Assembly (NCBI GenBank): GCA_028702415.1
Contig: JAQVOT010000027.1
Span: 1 to 10,088 of the forward strand
DNA length: 10,088 bases
Source: Eubacteriales bacterium
Lineage (GTDB): Bacteria > Bacillota > Clostridia > Peptostreptococcales > Anaerovoracaceae
Direction of reading: 5' to 3'
Shown: piece after piece, positions 766 to 10,088 of the stretch
How the letters are laid out: each line of letters opens with the position of its first letter
Position numbering within the stretch: the first letter of the stretch is position 1
Translations under genes and position numbers: made by a program
The notes under the pieces: generated by a model
Database searches by the model: none
Told to the model about the DNA's origin: nothing
Seen by the model: the letters and a program-made list of their open reading frames with translations, nothing else

Positions 766-1104
766 ATGAGTGAAAATATCCACACACATAAAAAACCAGA
801 TGGTACTGAATATGTACACAGTCATGTTGAAGGGCATACACACAATCATCAAAACACAAAAGCAGTCTTAAACCGACTGTCACGTGCTGCTGGTCACCTG
901 GAATCGGTAAAGCGCATGATTGAGACGGGAAAGGACTGCAGCGAGGTATTAATCCAATTATCTGCTGTTATTTCGGCACTTAGCAATACCGGAAAGGTGA
1001 TTTTAAAGGATCATCTTGAGCATTGTATTGTAGATGCTGTAGAATCAGGCGATAAAGATGCTATAGATAATCTAAATAATGCAATAAACCATTTTATTAA
1101 ATGA
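766..1104 (+). CDS. CsoR/RcnR-family metal-sensing transcriptional repressor with His-rich N-terminus
   Basis: This is a 112-residue, all-helical DNA-binding metal sensor of the CsoR/RcnR/FrmR family. The core begins with the RLSRAAGHLESVKRMIE helix (37-53). The metal ligand set fits the family: C58, then H83 exactly 25 residues on, then C87, which is the Cys/His-x3-Cys arrangement of copper-sensing CsoR. Ahead of it is an unusual N-terminus with about eight histidines in the first 28 residues, which suggests nickel or cobalt contact as in RcnR/InrS-type sensors. I chose ATG 766 because AAAGGAGG (748-755) precedes it; an in-frame extension back to 712 has no ribosome binding site. Copper, nickel or cobalt are all possible inducers. 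The shared C-tract motifs before cbiM argue for Co/Ni. Confidence 0.85.
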   Translation: MSENIHTHKKPDGTEYVHSHVEGHTHNHQNTKAVLNRLSRAAGHLESVKRMIETGKDCSEVLIQLSAVISALSNTGKVILKDHLEHCIVDAVESGDKDAIDNLNNAINHFIK

Positions 1105-1149: not shown

Positions 1150-1170
1150 ATATCTCCATCCGGGGCATAT
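1150..1170. promoter_or_regulatory. Candidate metalloregulator operator A1 (C-tract/G-tract dyad)
   Basis: ATATCTCC (1150-1157) and GGGCATAT (1163-1170) form an imperfect dyad around ATCCG. Site B1 before cbiM has the same loop and the same CCATCCGGGG core. A GC-tract flanked by AT-rich inverted arms is the style of CsoR/RcnR operators. The assignment to the upstream sensor gene is inferred. Confidence 0.5.
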
Positions 1171-1260
1171 GAAGTATACAATTTGAGGATTTTGTAGGAA
1201 AAGCAGAACAAAAAAACGTCTGTAATTCAATACTTTCAAGGCATAGAAAAAAATATAATT

Positions 1261-1277
1261 TATATCCCCCATACCGG
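1261..1277 (+). promoter_or_regulatory. Candidate operator A2 adjoining the -35 element
   Basis: TATATCCCCCATACCGG ends one base before a shared GGCTTG stretch that includes the -35. Its C-run starts at 1266, 13 bp before the TTG of the -35, identical to the placement in front of cbiM. It resembles A1 in its ATC-C-run-AT-CCGG pattern but lacks the mirrored G-tract. Confidence 0.5.
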
Positions 1278-1278
1278 C

Positions 1279-1306
1279 TTGTGCTGCGGTGTGCAATCTA
1301 TATAAT
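1279..1306 (+). promoter_or_regulatory. Promoter of the small membrane-protein pair
   Basis: TTGTGC (1279-1284) and TATAAT (1301-1306) are separated by 16 bp; a second TATAAT sits at 1310-1315. Transcription would begin near 1313-1320, leaving a leader of roughly 105 bases. That leader includes a small hairpin, ATTTATG (1340-1346) with CATAAAT (1353-1359). The whole gap 1105-1424 contains this promoter, the two candidate operators and no gene I can support. Confidence 0.6.
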
Positions 1307-1424: not shown

Positions 1425-1841
1425 ATGGCATGTTTTCTTGTACCTGTTGCTGAAGCAATCGTAACTACCGTTGTATCAAAGGCAAAAAGAGATGTTGAGC
1501 CTGCAGACCACAAAACCGAAACTGGTACCCATGAGATGGAAATTAGAATACCGTTTTCCAGAAAACTCAAATGGCTTACCAATATGCTTTGGGGAGGTTC
1601 TGCTCTGTTGGCATTCGAACATGTGTGGCATGGCGAGGTGGTACCGTGGTTCCCGTTCTTGACAGCTGCAAGCAATCCAGCGGATGCGTCGGTTATGCTG
1701 CATGAAATGTCCACGGTCGGTGTCTCTATGGCTATTCTTGTTACTGCAGTATGGGCTGGTATGGTGCTCGTGACCAACGCAATGGAGAAAAAAGTTCTTA
1801 AAGAGCAGCACAAACCCGCTCTGAATTTAGGAGGCCAATAA
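1425..1841 (+). CDS. Small membrane protein of unknown function, first of an overlapping pair
   Basis: This encodes 138 residues from ATG 1425, preceded by GAGGAGG (1409-1415). There is a hydrophobic N-terminus (about 1-18), then a polar stretch with H29 and H36, then hydrophobic segments at about 50-66 and 97-118. Possible metal-binding side chains cluster beside the first segment (E65, H66, H69, E71), with H93 just before the next. I have the impression that similar proteins occur as unnamed neighbours in anaerobes, but I know of no assigned function. Its promoter region mirrors that of cbiM, so a role in cobalt or nickel handling (transport, efflux or sensing) is a reasonable inference only. 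The stop codon overlaps the next start by one base (TAATG), implying translational coupling. Confidence 0.75.
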   Translation: MACFLVPVAEAIVTTVVSKAKRDVEPADHKTETGTHEMEIRIPFSRKLKWLTNMLWGGSALLAFEHVWHGEVVPWFPFLTAASNPADASVMLHEMSTVGVSMAILVTAVWAGMVLVTNAMEKKVLKEQHKPALNLGGQ

Positions 1842-2155
1842 TGACACTACTTACTACCATTTTCGCGGCGATTATCTGTACAATTATCTGGTATAAAAAT
1901 GCACCGAAAAGTGAAATGAAGGTTGGTATTTTATGCTGGATATATTGGGGTGCTTCCTTAATGTGGTTGGTAGATGCGATATTCGAGTATGTAGAATTGC
2001 GCGACGAGTACTTTACTCCGGCGCCCGTGGATATGCTCAATGATTTCTATCTCGGTCTTTCGGTTGTGGCGCTGGGACTTATCATATGGCTCGTGATTTT
2101 GTTAATCAAAGACCCAAAGGGAGTTGTAAAAGCCTCATTATTTAAGAAAAAATAA
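1841..2155 (+). CDS. Small three-helix membrane protein of unknown function, second of the pair
   Basis: This encodes 104 residues starting in the TAATG overlap with the previous gene, with AGGAGG at 1829-1834 inside the end of that gene. Three hydrophobic segments are visible at about 1-17, 28-49 and 68-89, ending in a lysine-rich cytoplasmic-type tail. Between the second and third lies an acidic stretch (DAIFEYVELRDEYF, about 45-58). No named domain was recognised. Tight coupling suggests that the two proteins act as a complex. A terminator follows within 20 bases, so the operon is just this pair, probably controlled by the upstream metal sensor. Confidence 0.75.
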   Translation: MTLLTTIFAAIICTIIWYKNAPKSEMKVGILCWIYWGASLMWLVDAIFEYVELRDEYFTPAPVDMLNDFYLGLSVVALGLIIWLVILLIKDPKGVVKASLFKKK

Positions 2156-2211: not shown

Positions 2212-3085
2212 GTATTACAACCTTTCAAGGAGGTATGTTCGTATATTCACTACATTAGACGAATGCCGGAAAGCATGGGAAGATACCGGAAGTTACGGAA
2301 AGATTTCTGACAGGATAGAGCGAAATAAAAGTTGGATTCAATATTACAGTTACATTGCGCAACAGCAGGAGAACTGTGAAGTTAGTTTTAACGAGCATGC
2401 GGAGGAGGTCGCTGATTATCTGGCGGAAAATGGATGGCTCAGAAAAGAAACTACAGTGTTAGATATCGGATCTGGAACGGGATCATATTCGATGTCTTTC
2501 GCAAAGCGAAGTCGCAAAGTTTCCGCATTTGATATGGACAGTGCATCTCTTGCTGTATTAAAAAATAACGCCGATAAGTTGGGACTTTCAAACATTGAAT
2601 GCATCGAGGGAATGTGGGAAACTTATACTCCTCAAAAAATCTTTTCATTGACATTCAGTTCTATGTGTCCTGCAATCTGCACCTATGACGAATTGCTGAA
2701 AATGGAAGCCATGACAAAGGACGTTTGTTGCCTGATTGCTGTAACAAGGGGTTCTTATGACCTGCACCGTAAAAGCCTAATGCAAATGTTGGAGGTCAGA
2801 CCAGTTGGAGCAATGACAACGGAGGCTCTTTGGTATTATGAAATTCTGTATCTGATGGGCAGACAGCCAGATGTAAGGAACTGGACAAGGCACTACGAGT
2901 ATGACCTTCCAGTAGAGGAAGCGTGTCGCCGAAACGAGGTATATTTTCAGATTTTCGGAATTCCTGTCGAACAGTCACGTCCTATCCTCCGGGAATATTT
3001 TAATGAAAAAGCAGATGCGGGATATGTACATGACATTAGTCATTTGAACACTGCACTAATCTGCTGGAAGCCAAAAAATAAATAA
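2210..3085 (+). CDS. Class I SAM-dependent methyltransferase, 5' end uncertain
   Basis: The reading frame encodes up to 291 residues with a Rossmann methyltransferase core. Motif I VLDIGSGTGSYS is at about 83-94, the acidic residue after beta-2 lies in AFDMD (about 106-110), and FSSMCPAICTYDEL follows where motif IV would be. The N-terminal 80 residues (KAWEDTGSYGKISDRIERN and onward) and the C-terminal part are accessory; the substrate is unknown. The start is problematic. TTG 2210 is the only canonical initiator before the core, but it lies inside the T-tract of the preceding terminator and has no ribosome binding site. A good AAGGAGG (2227-2233) follows, yet the ATG after it (2235) is out of frame and stops after seven codons. 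A non-standard start (ATA 2243), a frameshift, or a rearranged 5' end are all possible. Confidence 0.75.
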   Translation: MYYNLSRRYVRIFTTLDECRKAWEDTGSYGKISDRIERNKSWIQYYSYIAQQQENCEVSFNEHAEEVADYLAENGWLRKETTVLDIGSGTGSYSMSFAKRSRKVSAFDMDSASLAVLKNNADKLGLSNIECIEGMWETYTPQKIFSLTFSSMCPAICTYDELLKMEAMTKDVCCLIAVTRGSYDLHRKSLMQMLEVRPVGAMTTEALWYYEILYLMGRQPDVRNWTRHYEYDLPVEEACRRNEVYFQIFGIPVEQSRPILREYFNEKADAGYVHDISHLNTALICWKPKNK

Positions 3086-3161: not shown

Positions 3162-3233
3162 TTATTCATTCACGTCCACGGTCACACCGGATTTGAATTC
3201 CACAGTGAATGTATCCTCGAAAATGCTGGCCGA
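3162..3233 (-). pseudogene. Possible C-terminal remnant of an unidentified minus-strand gene
   Basis: On the minus strand, bases 3233 to 3162 read as an open tail ending in FTVEFKSGVTVDVNE and then TAA (3164-3162). It looks like a natural beta-rich protein C-terminus and stops just before the terminator hairpin. It is closed by a stop (3236-3234) immediately upstream, so there is no start. It overlaps the left edge of the truncated peptidase, and I place the junction near 3215-3225. The evidence is only the protein-like look of about 18 residues. Confidence 0.25.
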
Positions 3234-3669
3234 CTATCGGGGCAAATATAGTGTGGAGATACTGGCGTTTAATGGGGAAGATCATTACAGTGCAGCAGGT
3301 GAAATGGATTACTTAAATAGGTATGGTAATGAGATGTCAGAAATTTTAGCCGTAATAAACATAGATGATGTTGGTTTTAAGCAGGGGAAATCAACCTATT
3401 CATTCTATGAATGCAGGCCGGGATTTGAAGAGTTGGTAGAAGGTGTTTTAGGAAAGTATGAGGGCCTCAAAAAAGGAGAACAATGGTATGCCGGAGACCA
3501 TATGGTCTTTGTGCAGAATCAAGTTCCTGCAATAGCTATTACATCAGAACTCATGCCTGAATTATTGAAAACTGTGACTCACACATCCGCAGATACGCCG
3601 GATTTGGTCGATTGTCAAAAGCTGGTTGAAATTGCTTCGGCAATAAACGAAGTGATAAGAATACTGTAA
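3193..3669 (+). pseudogene. 5'-truncated M28-family zinc aminopeptidase
   Basis: The open frame gives 158 residues that match the C-terminal half of M28 peptidases. It begins near the strand carrying the catalytic acidic pair (EILAFNGEDHYSAAGEM, E then D), continues through NIDDVG, the likely metal-Asp region, and ends with THTSADTPDLVD, which holds the C-terminal metal-binding His. The N-terminal part with the first metal His-x-Asp and the bridging Asp is absent. Intact family members are about twice this length or more. The apparent TTG start at 3193 has no ribosome binding site, and the first 10 residues overlap an apparently foreign minus-strand tail. I take it as a deletion remnant, probably inactive. 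A frame kept open over 150 codons implies that the truncation is recent or that the fragment is tolerated. Confidence 0.7.
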
Positions 3670-3788: not shown

Positions 3789-4220
3789 ATGAAACTCTCT
3801 TTCGAAGAATTAGTAAAAGAATTGAAGATAAAAAATATTAATCTTTCATATCAAAGATTGAAGGTTTTAGAATATCTTGTCCAAAATCAAAATCATCCGA
3901 CGGTAGATCAGATATTTACCGATCTTCAGAAGAAAATACCTACATTATCGAAAACAACAGTCTACAACACCTTGCGAATTCTGATAGAAGCAGGTTTGGT
4001 AAGGGTAATAACAATTGAAGATAATGAAACCAGATACGATATTGAGGTTAAAAACCACGGGCATTTTAAATGCGAATCCTGTGGAACAATATTCAACTTT
4101 GACCTTGATATAGATGAATTGAACTCAAGTGATCTGAAAAACTTCAAAATTAATGATAAAAACGTATATTTCAAAGGTATCTGCCCAAGGTGTCTTTCAA
4201 ATATAAAAGAAAACAAGTGA
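3789..4220 (+). CDS. perR: PerR-like peroxide-sensing repressor (Fur family)
   Basis: This encodes 143 residues from ATG 3789, chosen because AGGAAG (3775-3780) is eight bases upstream; GTG 3780 would overlap that site. The winged helix ends in TVYNTLRIL (57-65), whose NxLR matches PerR rather than Fur. The regulatory metal ligands H36, D84, H90 and H92 align with B. subtilis PerR H37, D85, H91 and H93. The structural zinc site is two CxxC pairs (C95/C98, C132/C135). The residue aligned with PerR D104 is Asn103, within FNFDLD; D105 might substitute. In the family, Fe(II)-bound PerR is oxidised at its histidines by peroxide and releases DNA. Its position 14 bases upstream of katG makes PerR the best name, although Fur or another paralogue is not excluded. 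Confidence 0.8.
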   Translation: MKLSFEELVKELKIKNINLSYQRLKVLEYLVQNQNHPTVDQIFTDLQKKIPTLSKTTVYNTLRILIEAGLVRVITIEDNETRYDIEVKNHGHFKCESCGTIFNFDLDIDELNSSDLKNFKINDKNVYFKGICPRCLSNIKENK

Positions 4221-4231
4221 AGGAGGATTAA

Positions 4232-6427
<2,196 letters not shown>

Positions 6428-6447
6428 GAAAAATAATATCAAAATAT

Positions 6448-6475
6448 CCTAGGGGGCATTATTATGCCCTCTAGG
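6448..6475 (+). terminator. Hairpin after katG, without T-tract
   Basis: CCTAG (6448-6452), one G-U pair and GGGCAT fold onto ATGCCC and CTAGG (6471-6475) around TATT, a 12-bp stem. No T-run follows, so it may act as an attenuator or an mRNA 3' stabiliser rather than a full terminator, allowing some read-through into the next genes. Confidence 0.5.
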
Positions 6476-6559
6476 TAGATCAAGAATGGGAATGATGGTT
6501 AGGGAATTGAATCAATTTGCATGAATTAACTTATAGGATTGAAGGAGGAACACGGTAAT

Positions 6560-7000
6560 TTGCGATCTTTAAAGAAGTATGTGTATATCACAATAGGATC
6601 ATTATCTTTAATTTTAGGAATTACAGGAGTTTTTATACCTGTGCTTCCCACCACCCCATTTCTCTTGCTTGCCTCTTTCTGTTACTTGCGAAGCTCAGAA
6701 CGGATGTATAATTGGTTGATGAATCACAAAATCTTTGGAGCATACATTTATAGCTATGTCACTTATAAGGCCATTCCGAAGAAAACAAAAATTGGTACAC
6801 TGGTTTTTCTTTGGTCGACCTTGATTGTTTCTATGATTCTAGTAATGTCCCTACTTATCAGAATATTTCTGCTCGTTGTTGGAATAGCTGTAACCGCTCA
6901 TCTTTTAATGCTGAAAACACTGAGTCAAGAAGACCTGAAAAAGCTCGATGGTTTGTATTGTAATAAAGCCAATGAGCAAGCATTATCTGAAAAAGATTGA
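6560..7000 (+). CDS. DUF454 (YbaN-like) inner membrane protein
   Basis: This encodes 146 residues from TTG 6560, selected because AAGGAGG (6542-6548) sits 11 bases upstream; the earlier in-frame TTG 6539 would precede that site. The family signature is clear: GITGVFIPVLPTTPFLLLAS (20-39), followed by SSERMYNWLMNHKIFGAYI and an AIPKKTK stretch. Hydrophobic segments are at about 8-26, 30-43, 80-98 and 100-118, with a polar C-terminal tail. The biochemical role of the family is not known to me. Its place inside a peroxide-defence cluster is suggestive only. The spacer before it (6476-6559) contains a small palindrome, AATTGAATCAATT (6505-6517), but no convincing promoter. Confidence 0.85.
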   Translation: MRSLKKYVYITIGSLSLILGITGVFIPVLPTTPFLLLASFCYLRSSERMYNWLMNHKIFGAYIYSYVTYKAIPKKTKIGTLVFLWSTLIVSMILVMSLLIRIFLLVVGIAVTAHLLMLKTLSQEDLKKLDGLYCNKANEQALSEKD

Positions 7001-7094
7001 TGGCATGAGATTTAAACAGCTATTTAAATGAAATAGTAAGTAATAAGAATTTAATTTGCATAAAATGGAACAAAAGGAAAAGGAGGGTTATATT

Positions 7095-7766
7095 TTGGAT
7101 ATTTACATTTGCTCAGTTTGTGGCTATATCTATGACGAAGCAAAAGGCATTCCAGAGGCAGAAATTGCACCAGGCACAGCATGGGAAAATCTGCCAGAGG
7201 ACTGGGTTTGCCCTCTCTGTGGCGCAGCAAAATCAGAATTTGAGAAACAGGGAGAGTCCGCTTCTACTGAAGTCAAGAAAACAACAGCTATCATGGAGCA
7301 GCCTTCTGACATGAAGGAAATGTCTGCATTAGAGGTCAGCGCTCTTTGCACAAATCTTGCGCGTGGTTGCGAAAAACAGTACAAGTCAGAGGAAGCAGAT
7401 CTCTTTAATGATCTTGCCGGGTATTTCAAAAAGGCATCAGCGGCTGCCAAGGCGCCGGATTTTGACCAGATGCTTGCGCTAATTGAAAAAGACCTTGAGG
7501 AAGGATTCCCTAATGCCAATGCTGTAGCGGCTGATGCTCAGGACCGAGGCGCACTCCGAGCGCTGGTTTGGAGCGAGAAGGTTACCCGAATATTAAAGTC
7601 GCTTATGGCTCGTTATCAGAAAGAGGGCGACGCCATGCTGGAAAATACCGGAGTTTACGTCTGCACCATATGTGGATTTGTCTACATAGGAGATACCCTA
7701 CCGGACATTTGTCCTGTATGCAAGGTGCCAAATTGGAAATTTGAAAAGATCGAAGGGAGGTCATGA
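7095..7766 (+). CDS. Rubredoxin-helical-rubredoxin protein
   Basis: This encodes 223 residues from TTG 7095, chosen for AAGGAGGG (7080-7087) seven bases upstream. Residues 3-50 are a classical rubredoxin (C6, C9, C39, C42, with the spacing of electron-carrier rubredoxins). Residues 75-180 are a helical region. Residues 187-220 are a short rubrerythrin-type rubredoxin knuckle (C190, C193, C206, C209). The helical part has none of the usual ExxH di-iron motifs, so it is probably not an active rubrerythrin domain; it may be a scaffold. A protein with two FeCys4 centres could pass electrons from a reductase or ferredoxin to a rubrerythrin. The stop lies two bases before the chosen start of the ferredoxin-rubrerythrin gene, indicating one transcript. 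Confidence 0.8.
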
Positions 7767-7768
7767 GA

Positions 7769-8749
7769 ATGTCTAAGAAATATGCTGTAAGAAATATTCG
7801 CTTGTGCACAAAAGACTGCTTGTGCCTCTACGTTTGCCCAACCGGAGCAACAGACACCGAGAATAGCGTCATCGATGTTGATAAGTGTATAGGTTGCGGT
7901 GATTGCGCTGACGCCTGTCCATCCGGTGCGATTTCAATGGTACCTATTGAGTATCCATTGCAGCAGCCTAAAACAGAAGCAGTCATGGGCGTGCTGAAAA
8001 CACTTATGCGTAGCAAGTCGGAACAGGAGAACATCGCTGCCGGGTTACCTGGAAAGCTTGCGGCCGCCATCGAGAAGTCCAACCATATTATGGCTGAGGA
8101 TATTATCCGTGAAGCCGGATATATGCTTCCACAAAGTGATAATGCGATGGCTTTTCTCGAATCACTGATTGATAAAAAGCAACCGGAAGGATTTCCAAAA
8201 GAAACGGTAGAAAAGTTGATAAATGCTTTTAGTAAAGATAAGGAGGACGAAAAAATGAGTGAAAACAAAACAATTGATAACCTTATGGCGGCATTTGCCG
8301 GAGAGGCGCAGGCAAACAGGAAGTATACCGCATATGCAAAGAAAGCTGAAAAAGACGGAAAAATTAATGCGGCAAAATTATTTAGAGCTGCAGCTGATGC
8401 GGAAACCCTTCATGCCCTGAAACACTTTGAAGTGGCTGGGAAAATCGGTTCAACTGCAGATAATCTGAAGGATGGTGTTGCAGGAGAAACTTACGAGTAT
8501 AAGGAAATGTATCCTGACTTTGTAAAGGAAGCTGAAGCTGAAGGGAACAAAGCTGCTCTCATGTCCTTCACATTCGCCATGAAAGCAGAAGAGGTTCACG
8601 CTGGGCTTTATCAGGATGCATTAGAGAATCTTGACCAGACAGAAGAAGTATTTTATTATCTCTGCCCGGTATGCGGAAACATTGAAAAATTTGTTCCGGA
8701 TAGATGCAGCATTTGCGGCGTTCCGGGAGATAAATTTATTAAATACTAA
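7769..8749 (+). CDS. Ferredoxin-rubrerythrin fusion protein
   Basis: This encodes 326 residues from ATG 7769 (GGGAGG at 7755-7760, eight bases upstream; ATG 7763 is too close). Residues 10-60 hold two 4Fe-4S motifs. The second is classical (C40, C43, C46, C50-P); the first is compressed (C13-x3-C17-x-C19-x3-C23-P). A helical linker follows (about 60-160). From residue 163 on lies a complete rubrerythrin. Counted from that Met, its di-iron ligands are E17, E50, H53, E78, E81, E112 and H115, with a C-terminal rubredoxin centre C137, C140, C151, C154. Rubrerythrin reduces hydrogen peroxide to water in anaerobes. A perfect ribosome binding site and ATG lie exactly at the domain border, so a free 164-residue rubrerythrin is probably also made. 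This may be two genes joined by loss of a stop. Confidence 0.85.
   Translation: MSKKYAVRNIRLCTKDCLCLYVCPTGATDTENSVIDVDKCIGCGDCADACPSGAISMVPIEYPLQQPKTEAVMGVLKTLMRSKSEQENIAAGLPGKLAAAIEKSNHIMAEDIIREAGYMLPQSDNAMAFLESLIDKKQPEGFPKETVEKLINAFSKDKEDEKMSENKTIDNLMAAFAGEAQANRKYTAYAKKAEKDGKINAAKLFRAAADAETLHALKHFEVAGKIGSTADNLKDGVAGETYEYKEMYPDFVKEAEAEGNKAALMSFTFAMKAEEVHAGLYQDALENLDQTEEVFYYLCPVCGNIEKFVPDRCSICGVPGDKFIKY
8240..8257 (+). promoter_or_regulatory. Internal ribosome binding site and start codon for rubrerythrin
   Basis: AAGGAGG (8240-8246) is followed after eight bases by ATG (8255-8257), in frame with the fusion and at the beginning of MSENKTIDNL, a typical rubrerythrin N-terminus. Initiation here would give a 164-residue rubrerythrin ending at 8749. 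The site is as strong as any other in the window. Confidence 0.75.
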
Positions 8750-8791
8750 TATTGTTAATAAAACTATGGGAAATTTAAGGAGGTAATTACC

Positions 8792-9097
8792 ATGCCAGAT
8801 TTTGGACATCCATTTTCAGGACTTGCTAAAGAAAAAAAGATTACCAACGCAGAATTGATCAGATCAATTCGTTTTATGGTATCAGCTGAATACGAGGCAA
8901 TTCAACTTTATATGCAATTGGCAGAATCGACTGACAACATATTGGCGAAAGAAGTACTGAAGGACATCGCTGACGAAGAAAGAGTTCATGCCGGAGAGTT
9001 CCTAAGATTGCTGAAGGAACTTGATCCAGAAGAAGAAAAGTTCTACGCCGAAGGCGCTGAAGAAGTAGAAGAGGAAATTGAGAAGTTAAATAAATAG
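8792..9097 (+). CDS. Demi-rubrerythrin-like small ferritin-like protein
   Basis: This encodes 101 residues from ATG 8792, with AAGGAGG (8777-8783) eight bases before. It is a two-helix ferritin-like domain. Helix one contains FMVSAEYEAIQLYMQL (E33, Y40) and helix two DIADEERVHAGEF (E63, H66), one ExxH half-site. Proteins with a single half-site dimerise to complete a di-iron centre. The N-terminus (MPDFGHPFSGL) and the acidic tail (81-98) are not metal-binding motifs. There is no rubredoxin centre. Likely roles are peroxide reduction or iron handling beside the rubrerythrin. Some small ferritin-like proteins are encapsulin cargo, but no shell gene is present here. It is the last gene before a strong terminator. 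Confidence 0.8.
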   Translation: MPDFGHPFSGLAKEKKITNAELIRSIRFMVSAEYEAIQLYMQLAESTDNILAKEVLKDIADEERVHAGEFLRLLKELDPEEEKFYAEGAEEVEEEIEKLNK

Positions 9098-9121: not shown

Positions 9122-9177
9122 TTCACACCCCTTTGTCATCAAATCCTTGAGATTTAGATAAGGGGTGTGAATTTTTT
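9122..9177 (+). terminator. Strong rho-independent terminator of the oxidative-stress cluster
   Basis: TTCACACCCCTT (9122-9133) pairs perfectly with AAGGGGTGTGAA (9160-9171), and six T follow (9172-9177). The loop holds a second small hairpin, AAATC (9141-9145) with GATTT (9151-9155). Confidence 0.92.
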
Positions 9178-9190
9178 AATTTATGGAATT

Positions 9191-9207
9191 ATCCCCATCC
9201 GGGGGAT
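9191..9207. promoter_or_regulatory. Candidate metalloregulator operator B1 before cbiM
   Basis: ATCCCC (9191-9196) and GGGGAT (9202-9207) form a perfect dyad around ATCCG, the same centre as in A1 upstream of the membrane pair. It lies about 100 bp upstream of the cbiM -35, immediately after the preceding terminator. Confidence 0.55.
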
Positions 9208-9288
9208 GTTGCATAGAAAAAAATGAAAATGAATCCAACAAGGGCCTATTAAACTAAGGCTTTCTTTGCATCGGATATAGTATATTTT

Positions 9289-9304
9289 TTATCCCCCACA
9301 CAGG
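9289..9304 (+). promoter_or_regulatory. Candidate operator B2 adjoining the cbiM -35
   Basis: TTATCCCCCACACAGG has its C-run starting at 9293, 13 bp before the -35 at 9306. Together with the following CTTG it matches A2 closely. The distance from B1 is about 94 bp centre to C-run, versus about 106 bp for A1-A2, a difference near one helical turn. Confidence 0.5.
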
Positions 9305-9305
9305 C

Positions 9306-9333
9306 TTGCACCATAAAAAATGCATAATATAAT
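9306..9333 (+). promoter_or_regulatory. Promoter of cbiM
   Basis: TTGCAC (9306-9311) and TATAAT (9328-9333) are separated by 16 bp, the same spacer as the membrane-pair promoter. The leader to the cbiM start is about 60 bases, and I see no cobalamin-box motif in it. The 300-base gap 9098-9398 is otherwise filled by the terminator and operator-like motifs described. Confidence 0.65.
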
Positions 9334-9398: not shown

Positions 9399-10088
9399 AT
9401 GCATATGGCAGATGCCCTGGTTTCACCGGAGGTTGGCGGAGTGATGATGGCAGCTACCGTTGGTGTTGCTGCATACTCAATTAAAAAGGTTCAAAATGAT
9501 TTGGATGATAAGAAAGTACCTATGATGGGGGTAATGGGTGCGTTTGTCTTTGCAGCCCAAATGATCAATTTTTCTATACCGGCAACCGGATCAAGCGGAC
9601 ACATTGGCGGAGGCATGTTGCTGGCAATAATGCTGGGCCCATACGCGGGATATTTAACCATGACGTCCATTTTATTTATACAGGCATTGTTCTTTGGAGA
9701 TGGGGGCTTGCTTGCCTTCGGATGCAATGCGTTCAATCTGGGATTTTACACTTGCTTTATCGCATATCCACTGATTTACAAATGGATAACACGAAAAGGA
9801 CTAACTTCAGGCCGAATATTCGGCGCTTCAATGGTTTCGTCGATTGTTGGATTGCAAATGGGCGCTTTTAGTGTTGTGTTGGAGACATTGTTTTCAGGGA
9901 AGACAGAATTGCCCTTTGGCACCTTTGTGCTTCTTATGCAGCCAATACATTTGGGAATTGGTCTCGTAGAAGGACTTGTAACGGCAGCTGTGGTGACCTT
10001 TGTCTGGAAGGCGCGCCCGGAGATAAATGAAAACTCTTTAGCACGCAGGGCCATCGGCAGTATACCGATTAAAAAAGTTCTTACGGGA
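9399..10088 (+). CDS. cbiM: CbiM-type substrate-binding membrane component of a cobalt/nickel ECF transporter, 3' end outside the window
   Basis: This encodes 230 residues to the edge with no stop. It begins MHMADALVSP, the CbiM/NikM signature in which the amino terminus and His2 bind the metal, so the start must be ATG 9399; the ribosome binding site (AAAAGGA, 9384-9390) is modest. A further candidate ligand is H68 in TGSSGHIGGG. Multiple hydrophobic segments span the sequence (about 12-27, 43-60, 73-95, 105-128, 140-160, 175-202). The protein captures Co(II) or Ni(II) for uptake with CbiQ/CbiO-type partners, which would be expected downstream. The operator-like motifs suggest metal-dependent control by the CsoR-family sensor. 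Cobalt and nickel specificity cannot be separated here. Confidence 0.9.
   Translation, partial: MHMADALVSPEVGGVMMAATVGVAAYSIKKVQNDLDDKKVPMMGVMGAFVFAAQMINFSIPATGSSGHIGGGMLLAIMLGPYAGYLTMTSILFIQALFFGDGGLLAFGCNAFNLGFYTCFIAYPLIYKWITRKGLTSGRIFGASMVSSIVGLQMGAFSVVLETLFSGKTELPFGTFVLLMQPIHLGIGLVEGLVTAAVVTFVWKARPEINENSLARRAIGSIPIKKVLTG

Follow-up and report, generated by a model that had tools for sequence, protein, structure and literature searches.

How bacteria that lack NikR control the uptake of nickel is an open gap: according to passages of a 2009 survey, NikR occurs in less than half of the organisms with NikABCDE, and NikR-independent regulation was inferred (PMC2667541). The question arises again in a stretch of 10,088 nucleotides (hereafter, the window), a complete contig (C94) of a genome of 1.39 Mb in 233 contigs (G000, 89.66% complete), in which two similar control regions precede an unnamed pair of membrane-type genes, here memA-memB, and cbiM. 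NikR is rejected as their regulator, since the NikR_C profile has no match in this 89.66% complete genome; it was found in one of 197 genomes of the family. A regulator clade, an operator and a target list are described here. The reading favoured, with a probability of about 0.5, is that both regions are operators of the CsoR-family regulator encoded at 766-1104, which would govern nickel (cobalt) uptake from two sites per region, activating in its metal-free form and being released by nickel.

The features of the window are collected in Table 1. The first control region lies between the CsoR/RcnR-family gene and memA-memB (1425-2155), and the second between a terminator-like hairpin and cbiM. 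Common to both are a distal dyad (ATCYCCATCCGGGGSAT) and a C-tract site, ATCCCCCN5GGCTTG, that overlaps the promoter.

Table 1. Features read or predicted in the window.
Feature	Position	Strand	Evidence or remark
CsoR/RcnR-family regulator (PF02583), 112 aa, His-rich N-terminus	766..1104	+	Pfam 93.7 bits vs cut-off 22.8
Distal dyad, candidate operator, region 1, ATCTCCATCCGGGGCAT	1152..1168	+	similar dyads 112-113 bp from proximal site in relatives
Proximal candidate operator, region 1, ATCCCCCATACCGGCTTG, overlaps -35	1264..1281	+	matrix score 17.8
-35 hexamer TTGTGC, region 1	1279..1284	+	13 bp after C-run start
-10 hexamer TATAAT, region 1, 16-bp spacer	1301..1306	+	read in sequence
memA, small membrane-type protein, no Pfam/NCBIfam family	1425..1841	+	invariant MAC N-terminus, EH.W and GE
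memB, second small membrane-type protein, overlaps memA stop	1841..2155	+	ORF; no family match
SAM methyltransferase-type protein, possible third gene of memAB unit	2252..3085	+	Pfam Methyltransf_31
Terminator-like hairpin (12-bp perfect stem, T-run) after upstream rubrerythrin-type genes	9122..9178	+	inverted repeat
Distal dyad, candidate operator, region 2, ATCCCCATCCGGGGGAT	9191..9207	+	matrix score 14.8 in register
Proximal candidate operator, region 2, ATCCCCCACACAGGCTTG, overlaps -35	9291..9308	+	matrix score 20.0
-35 hexamer TTGCAC, region 2	9306..9311	+	
-10 hexamer TATAAT, region 2, 16-bp spacer	9328..9333	+	
cbiM, substrate-specific membrane component of ECF Co/Ni transporter, runs off contig	9399..10088	+	Pfam CbiM 197.2 bits vs 23.1

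An earlier note on this DNA had described twin regions with a dyad, a C-tract motif whose C-run starts 13 bp before a -35, a 16-bp spacer and TATAAT, and the coordinates bear this out: the C-runs start at 1266 and 9293 and the TTG triplets at 1279 and 9306. A second TATAAT stands in region 1 at 1310-1315. The dyad-to-C-run distances of about 106 and 94 bp given in that note were taken from other anchors; from start to start, the distal and proximal sites are 112 bp (region 1) and 100 bp (region 2) apart, which confirms the difference of 12 bp. Between the two intergenic DNAs, the best ungapped match over 25 bp (21/25) falls on the proximal motif and was reached by none of 300 shuffle pairs, and the only exact matches to ATCNCCATCCGGGGNAT in the genome (89.66% complete) are the two distal dyads. 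The A-rich 14-mer GCATAGAAAAAAAT, also noticed before, is indeed present in both regions (a 14-mer was shared in one of 500 shuffle pairs), but it forms no conserved block in an alignment of six modules; it is not part of the module and is probably due to chance.

The proximal site is conserved. A position weight matrix derived from 23 sites of relatives, the window being left out of training, peaks in the window at 9287, with 20.0, and at 1260, with 17.8, while the next-best place there other than a dyad scores 5.8; the maximum over 300 dinucleotide shuffles of the window was 15.2, and none reached 16. The distal dyads behave differently in this matrix, that at 9187 scoring 14.8 (one shuffle scored at least 14) and that at 1148 only 2.3. 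In 771,875 bases of loci the matrix finds 52 scores of 17 or more, training sites and overlapping copies included, versus none in the reversed sequence. The bare pattern CCCCCN{0,4}GGGGCTTG is only mildly specific, with matches in 27 of the 197 family genomes versus 14 for the reversed pattern, and among the 29 distinct contexts printed for it about 15 are promoter-like by eye and about 14 are not. The promoter-like matches (by eye) precede cbiM, memA, NikB-like permeases and a secreted 5'-nucleotidase-like protein, and these sites are gapless, with C5, usually GGGG, and CTTG, often followed by a -10 at 16-17 bp; the right half is degenerate in the proximal sites of the window, which have CCGG and CAGG instead of GGGG. 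Within the genome of the window, the proximal pattern with up to two mismatches gives 20 matches (7 for the reversed control), and the two places beyond the window with a single mismatch are at no transporter promoter. The earlier note had named conservation in related genomes as its own test, and of 76 family genomes whose DNA in front of memA or cbiM was examined, 19 do carry the motif in that place. By its sequence, the site is a predicted conserved operator of the CsoR-family type.

The distal dyad, by contrast, is the exception among the sites. A second dyad (up to two mismatches) lies near 13 of the 70 sites scoring at least 12, where about 4 are expected from the background (206 in 1,679,075 bases); the 13 include the two modules of the window and four relatives. 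In G192, G035, G071 and G164, ATCCCYATCCRGGGSAT is found exactly 113 bp upstream of the proximal site, and the module is followed by memA and then a nikA-type gene (G192), by methyltransferase, FmdE and FecCD genes (G035), or by a nikA-type gene and then a permease (G071 and G164). When 391 genomes of the class were searched for both sites in this arrangement, only the two modules of the window and three further genomes came up (reversed control, 0/391): G305, from another family, has a 101-bp module before cbiM, and G407 and G463 have near-identical copies of a 112-bp module before methyltransferase-FmdE. The complete module is thus found before Ni/Co-type uptake genes in four family genomes and three further genomes of the class. 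When one of the twin copies is dropped, six of eight spacings are 112-113 bp and two are 100-101 bp, both of the latter before cbiM. If spacings were uniformly distributed, the probability that a single 2-bp bin holds at least six would be 4e-5, a value that makes the clustering look more significant than it is, as three modules come from one genus (g71). In the 113-bp modules the 96-bp gaps are 30-49% identical (ungapped, four modules) versus 82-94% for the sites, so that the spacing is kept while the gap sequence drifts. The kept spacing fits a loop or a wrapped complex. Same-face binding or looping, as proposed earlier, is compatible with the recurrent spacings, but these differ by 12-13 bp and not by exactly 10.5, and several of the modules have a common origin.

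The genes behind these sites resemble uptake genes. Among 50 distinct sites scoring at least 16 (window and training sites included), 38 precede a gene related to one of the nine proteins taken as references, labelled memA (13), cbiM (11), csoR (4), 5'-nucleotidase-like (3), nikB (2), nikA-type (2), methyltransferase (2) and FecCD (1), and 12 are unlabelled; the proportions are biased, as most of the loci had been chosen for their memA, cbiM or csoR, and the tally is silent on exporters, since none of the nine proteins is one. By profile, the downstream genes encode CbiM, NikB-like permeases, a NikA/oligopeptide-type binding protein, FecCD permeases, FmdE, Peripla_BP_2 and a 5'-nucleotidase C-terminal domain. 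The NikA/NikB-type proteins match nickel transporter models below the curated cut-offs, which makes a nickel substrate probable and not certain. CbiM serves cobalt too, and relatives of it (E<=0.001) occur in 64 of the 197 family genomes, many of them weak. The targets point to a nickel-leaning uptake regulon: the Co/Ni regulon of the earlier note holds in its uptake-type targets, with nickel better supported than cobalt by the NikA/NikB-like proteins, sub-threshold as these are, and by the LarE and LarB found under an RNA element of relatives (see below).

The pair memA-memB, which is in this way tied to nickel-type genes, matches no Pfam or NCBIfam family. Genes for memA are present in 33 of the 197 family genomes, that of the window included, and in at least 571 confirmed stretches of a species-genome collection; its EH.W.GE stretch could bind metal, and its AlphaFold model is weak (mean pLDDT 71.3, pTM 0.42). 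An ORF beginning MTLL.. and resembling memB follows memA in many loci of relatives (by eye). The methyltransferase-type protein encoded at 2252-3085 resembles the methyltransferase that comes first after the module in G035 only weakly (22% over 225 aa). Among the relatives, memA-memB precede the nikA-type gene in G192, a larE-like gene (by eye) lies near memA in L028, and a cobalamin riboswitch (96.2 bits) is located just 3' of memB in G163 (L010, 2338-2567).

The protein encoded at 766-1104 carries C58, H83 and C87 as its likely sensor residues, with H86 adjoining, as aligned with InrS (5fmn) and CsoR structures. Its match to the InrS chain 5fmn is only 70.5 bits, and the closest solved structure is 6ahx, a "putative cytosolic protein". 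PF02583 genes are present in 110 of the 197 family genomes, and a tree of 144 PF02583 proteins, among them that of the window, divides according to the residue that precedes the first Cys into 89 YC proteins, 16 PC proteins and a DC group of 37. Many YC and PC genes adjoin a CPC-type P-type ATPase. The DC group (support 100/96) has mostly His-rich N-termini, and the protein of the window falls into a 12-row subclade of it (97/93) together with G192, G071, G035, G164 and others. On this tree the DC regulators form one clade apart from the copper-type CsoRs. Copper sensing is rejected, as the DC clade and the gene neighbours argue against it. No P-type ATPase was seen by eye among the ORFs of the window. 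A second, unlinked DC-type csoR is located elsewhere in the same genome (contig C30, L141), and the best score in its stretch is 0.6; the acting regulator could instead be this one.

Among the known systems, the nearest in function is InrS of Synechocystis, a host that has no nikR; according to section 2.3.2 of PMC7055735, InrS binds in front of nik there and raises nik expression. The window protein shares with InrS the Cys-His-Cys ligand set plus N-terminal His (by alignment; Cys-His-Cys alone is also found in copper CsoRs), the link to nickel, a host without NikR and a site upstream of import genes (PMC7055735, in part). InrS also controls the exporter nrsD, whereas here no exporter target is recognised and the operator consists of two sites whose spacing recurs. 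The nearest operator is that of NcrB from Leptospirillum ferriphilum (DUF156), a 17-bp sequence ATCCCCCTGGGGGGGAT whose outer 12 bases are those of the 9191-9207 dyad; in the same passages of PMC3046157, NcrB occupies -4 to +25 and acts as a repressor of nickel-resistance genes, whereas the sites here lie at about -42 and -142/-154 (start assumed) before uptake-type genes. Copper CsoRs have type 2 operators with two G/C tracts a few bases apart and an RLxR motif, to which RLSR corresponds in the window protein (PMC3902906, in part); they differ in that here the flanks are not TAC/GTA, no copper-efflux target was seen in the window, D and not Y precedes the first Cys, and neither a copA/copZ neighbour nor membership of the YC group is found. 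RcnR is alike in family, Ni/Co theme and paired operator sites, but the RcnR equivalog model gives 31.3 bits against a cut-off of 138, and the last ligand position is C87 where RcnR has His. NikR also controls nickel uptake, from another family and with another operator. The module is therefore best filed as CsoR/RcnR-type control by a PF02583 member, working like InrS at nik, with an operator like that of NcrB, and neither RcnR nor copper CsoR. No paper on CsoR-family control of cbiM or nik in such bacteria, or on the hairpin RNA described below, was named among the papers listed by searches of an open-access library. The two-site module is probably how some bacteria without NikR control metal uptake.

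In the mechanism favoured here, the 766-1104 regulator would bind two sites per region. The proximal site (C5-N5-GG, its right half merging into the TTG of the -35) would be centred at about -42 from the expected start, the dyad centre being 7 bp before TTG and the start being assumed about 7 bp after the -10, and the distal dyad would lie 112 or 100 bp further upstream; with regulator at both, a loop or wrapped complex would probably form. The metal-free protein would bind and activate promoters with weak -35 hexamers, and nickel filling the C58-H83-C87 plus N-terminal His site would release it from DNA, as with InrS and NcrB, so that uptake falls. The regulon would comprise memAB(-methyltransferase) and cbiM in the window, for the uptake of nickel and perhaps also cobalt, and in relatives nikA/nikB-type transporters, FecCD transporters with FmdE/methyltransferase, memAB and cbiM. 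At the fourth position of the -35, the consensus base A stands in none of the 23 training sites and in 3 of the 50 sites scoring at least 16, a scarcity to be read with the fact that the matrix itself disfavours A there. Activation by the apo-protein is favoured because of the position near -42, the weak -35 hexamers and the InrS precedent (PMC7055735, section 2.3.2). Given the link of regulator, operator and regulon, activation is slightly better than an even bet, corepression is a weaker contender and derepression is improbable.

Corepression, altogether a possible but clearly less probable account, keeps the same regulator, sites and regulon, but has the holo-protein bind over the -35 and repress uptake in the manner of NikR, with an allostery reversed relative to the known CsoR/RcnR proteins. 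A site overlapping the -35 is a classic repressor position too, the targets resemble uptake genes and NikR is present in only 1 of the 197 family genomes; on the other hand, many promoters have the site at one and the same distance from the -35, whereas the operators of repressors as a rule differ in position, and the -35 hexamers are weak. NikR-type corepression of import is the textbook solution (PMC7055735, in part), but InrS and NcrB lose DNA binding with nickel bound (passages in PMC4235346 and PMC3046157). A classic derepressor, in which the apo-protein represses, nickel induces and the genes serve detoxification or metal handling and not scarcity-driven uptake, is hardly likely. It is the usual CsoR/RcnR/NcrB logic (PMC4235346 and PMC3046157, in part) and the distal dyad resembles the NcrB operator, and the DC csoR of G183 has downstream of it a P-type ATPase without the CPC motif that could be an exporter, in a stretch whose best score is 2.1. 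Against it, the targets identified by profile are of the importer type, and inspection by eye of the DNA that follows unlabelled sites (L258, L309, L285, L344 and L182) revealed no exporter. L309 and L344 have memA-memB at some distance, L309 and L285 have a nikA-type gene behind csoR, and L258 and L182 show nothing decisive. With the regulator clade, operator and target list given here, the direction of control becomes testable.

In some relatives, most of them without a DC csoR, genes of these kinds are preceded by a separate, antiterminator-like RNA element. Where the operator is absent, the leaders of some cbiM and memA genes contain hairpins, frequently in tandem, whose loops read C-A(N)GAA-G; the final hairpin overlaps or is exclusive with a terminator. 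Carriers are the memA leaders of L010, L014, L274, L280, L283, L323 and L347, the cbiM leaders of L040-L045 and L059, the larE leaders of L369 and L375 and the csoR leader of L360; the element was not seen in the window. Hairpins with a stem of at least 4 are present in 34 of 80 named memA loci versus none in the reversed and none in the antisense sequence, and in the memA/cbiM upstream regions examined (76 family genomes) no gene was seen to have both an operator (score at least 16) and hairpins. Built from 18 hand-picked examples of the final hairpin, a covariance model matches 24 places in 22 of the 197 genomes. Eleven belong to memA or cbiM loci that had been found before, several being members of the model, and the other 13 lie, by eye, before ECF S-component-like genes (8, one checked by Pfam and one 0.76 kb away), LarE (2), Nik-type permeases (2) and a DC csoR (1). 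One LarE and one LarB under the element score above curated cut-offs. LarE and LarB make the nickel-pincer cofactor, so the element points to nickel. Rfam at E<=1 gives no match over the element in 35 loci scanned, 21 of them with hairpins; its matches elsewhere in these loci are cobalamin, c-di-GMP-II and two tRNAs, with sub-threshold ones in L018 and L044. An ANTAR target RNA is rejected, since hexaloops with A1 and G4 are required (PMC8934654, in part) and the loops here put G at position 2-3. On sequence, the element is a candidate nickel-responsive riboswitch or protein-bound antiterminator.

The hairpin genomes also serve as the comparison for the regulator. A DC-type csoR is present in 16 of 19 operator genomes versus 3 of 21 hairpin genomes, the latter counted by a loose criterion (stem at least 3) (Fisher p 1.8e-5); the exceptions are G017, G070 and G184 (71-83% complete) on one side and G035, G047 and G195 on the other. 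Neither operator nor hairpins are found in 36 of the 76 genomes with examined memA/cbiM upstream regions, and of the six among these that have a DC gene, four show sub-threshold sites (7.1-14.1) before cbiM, and G071 and G164 have a site before nikA-type genes. The 80 named memA loci, whose sites are not among the training sites, agree: a DC csoR is present in five of the six with a score of at least 12 within 400 bp, the sixth being L308 (13.5), with no csoR in its stretch, and any CsoR gene in none of the other 74, among them L344, with a strong site further upstream and no csoR in its 7.9 kb. The complete module has a DC-fingerprint csoR upstream in all seven genomes, directly in six and about 1.1 kb away in G192 (for G305, G407 and G463 the assignment was by eye, outside the tree). 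Some DC genes adjoin cbiM, nik-type genes or memA, and in G058, G050 and G092 the site lies between a divergent DC csoR and the target gene. Only 14 of the 37 stretches around DC-type csoR genes hold a site of at least 16, so many DC regulators and sites lie apart, and adjacency is common but not the rule. A G/C-tract dyad near the regulated gene, a mark of the CsoR/RcnR family (PMC3902906, in part), is present in the sequence. With the conservation of the sites, these associations make the predicted link of regulator, operator and regulon very probable, and what the earlier note claimed of CsoR/RcnR-type operators stands to that extent; from them we infer the binding by the 766-1104 protein that it also claimed. 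That the motifs are operators of some other regulator, their linkage to the DC clade being historical, is the least likely account: the three operator genomes without a detected DC csoR, the 23 of 37 DC-csoR stretches without a site of at least 16 and the second DC csoR of the genome speak for it, but sites between divergent csoR and targets and before csoR itself, the co-occurrence of operator and DC csoR, and G-tract dyads as the known operator type of the family (PMC3902906, in part) speak against it.

A more far-reaching proposal, put forward tentatively, is that the DC clade would be a dedicated nickel-scarcity class II activator, acting as apo-protein from the distal dyad and the -42 site at set spacings and released by nickel, which sister lineages would have exchanged for the tandem-hairpin antiterminator RNA on the same genes, namely cbiM, memAB and nik-type genes, with larE-larB and an ECF S-component in addition. 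If true, one regulon would have two exchangeable controllers, one a protein and the other an RNA.

Some observations concern the remainder of the window. A riboswitch is rejected there, as Rfam at E<=1 gives only the weak end of a group II intron at 1-59. After this possible intron end, and upstream of a small ORF (375-581), about four copies of a repeat of about 20 bp (ACAGAGCAGATTGGATGTTA-like, by eye) occupy 195-316. A Peptidase M28-like reading frame with a seemingly truncated start is located at 3193-3669. Between the two modules (3789-9097) lies an oxidative-stress-type block, comprising a Fur/PerR-type regulator, a katG-like gene, DUF454 and rubredoxin/rubrerythrin genes.
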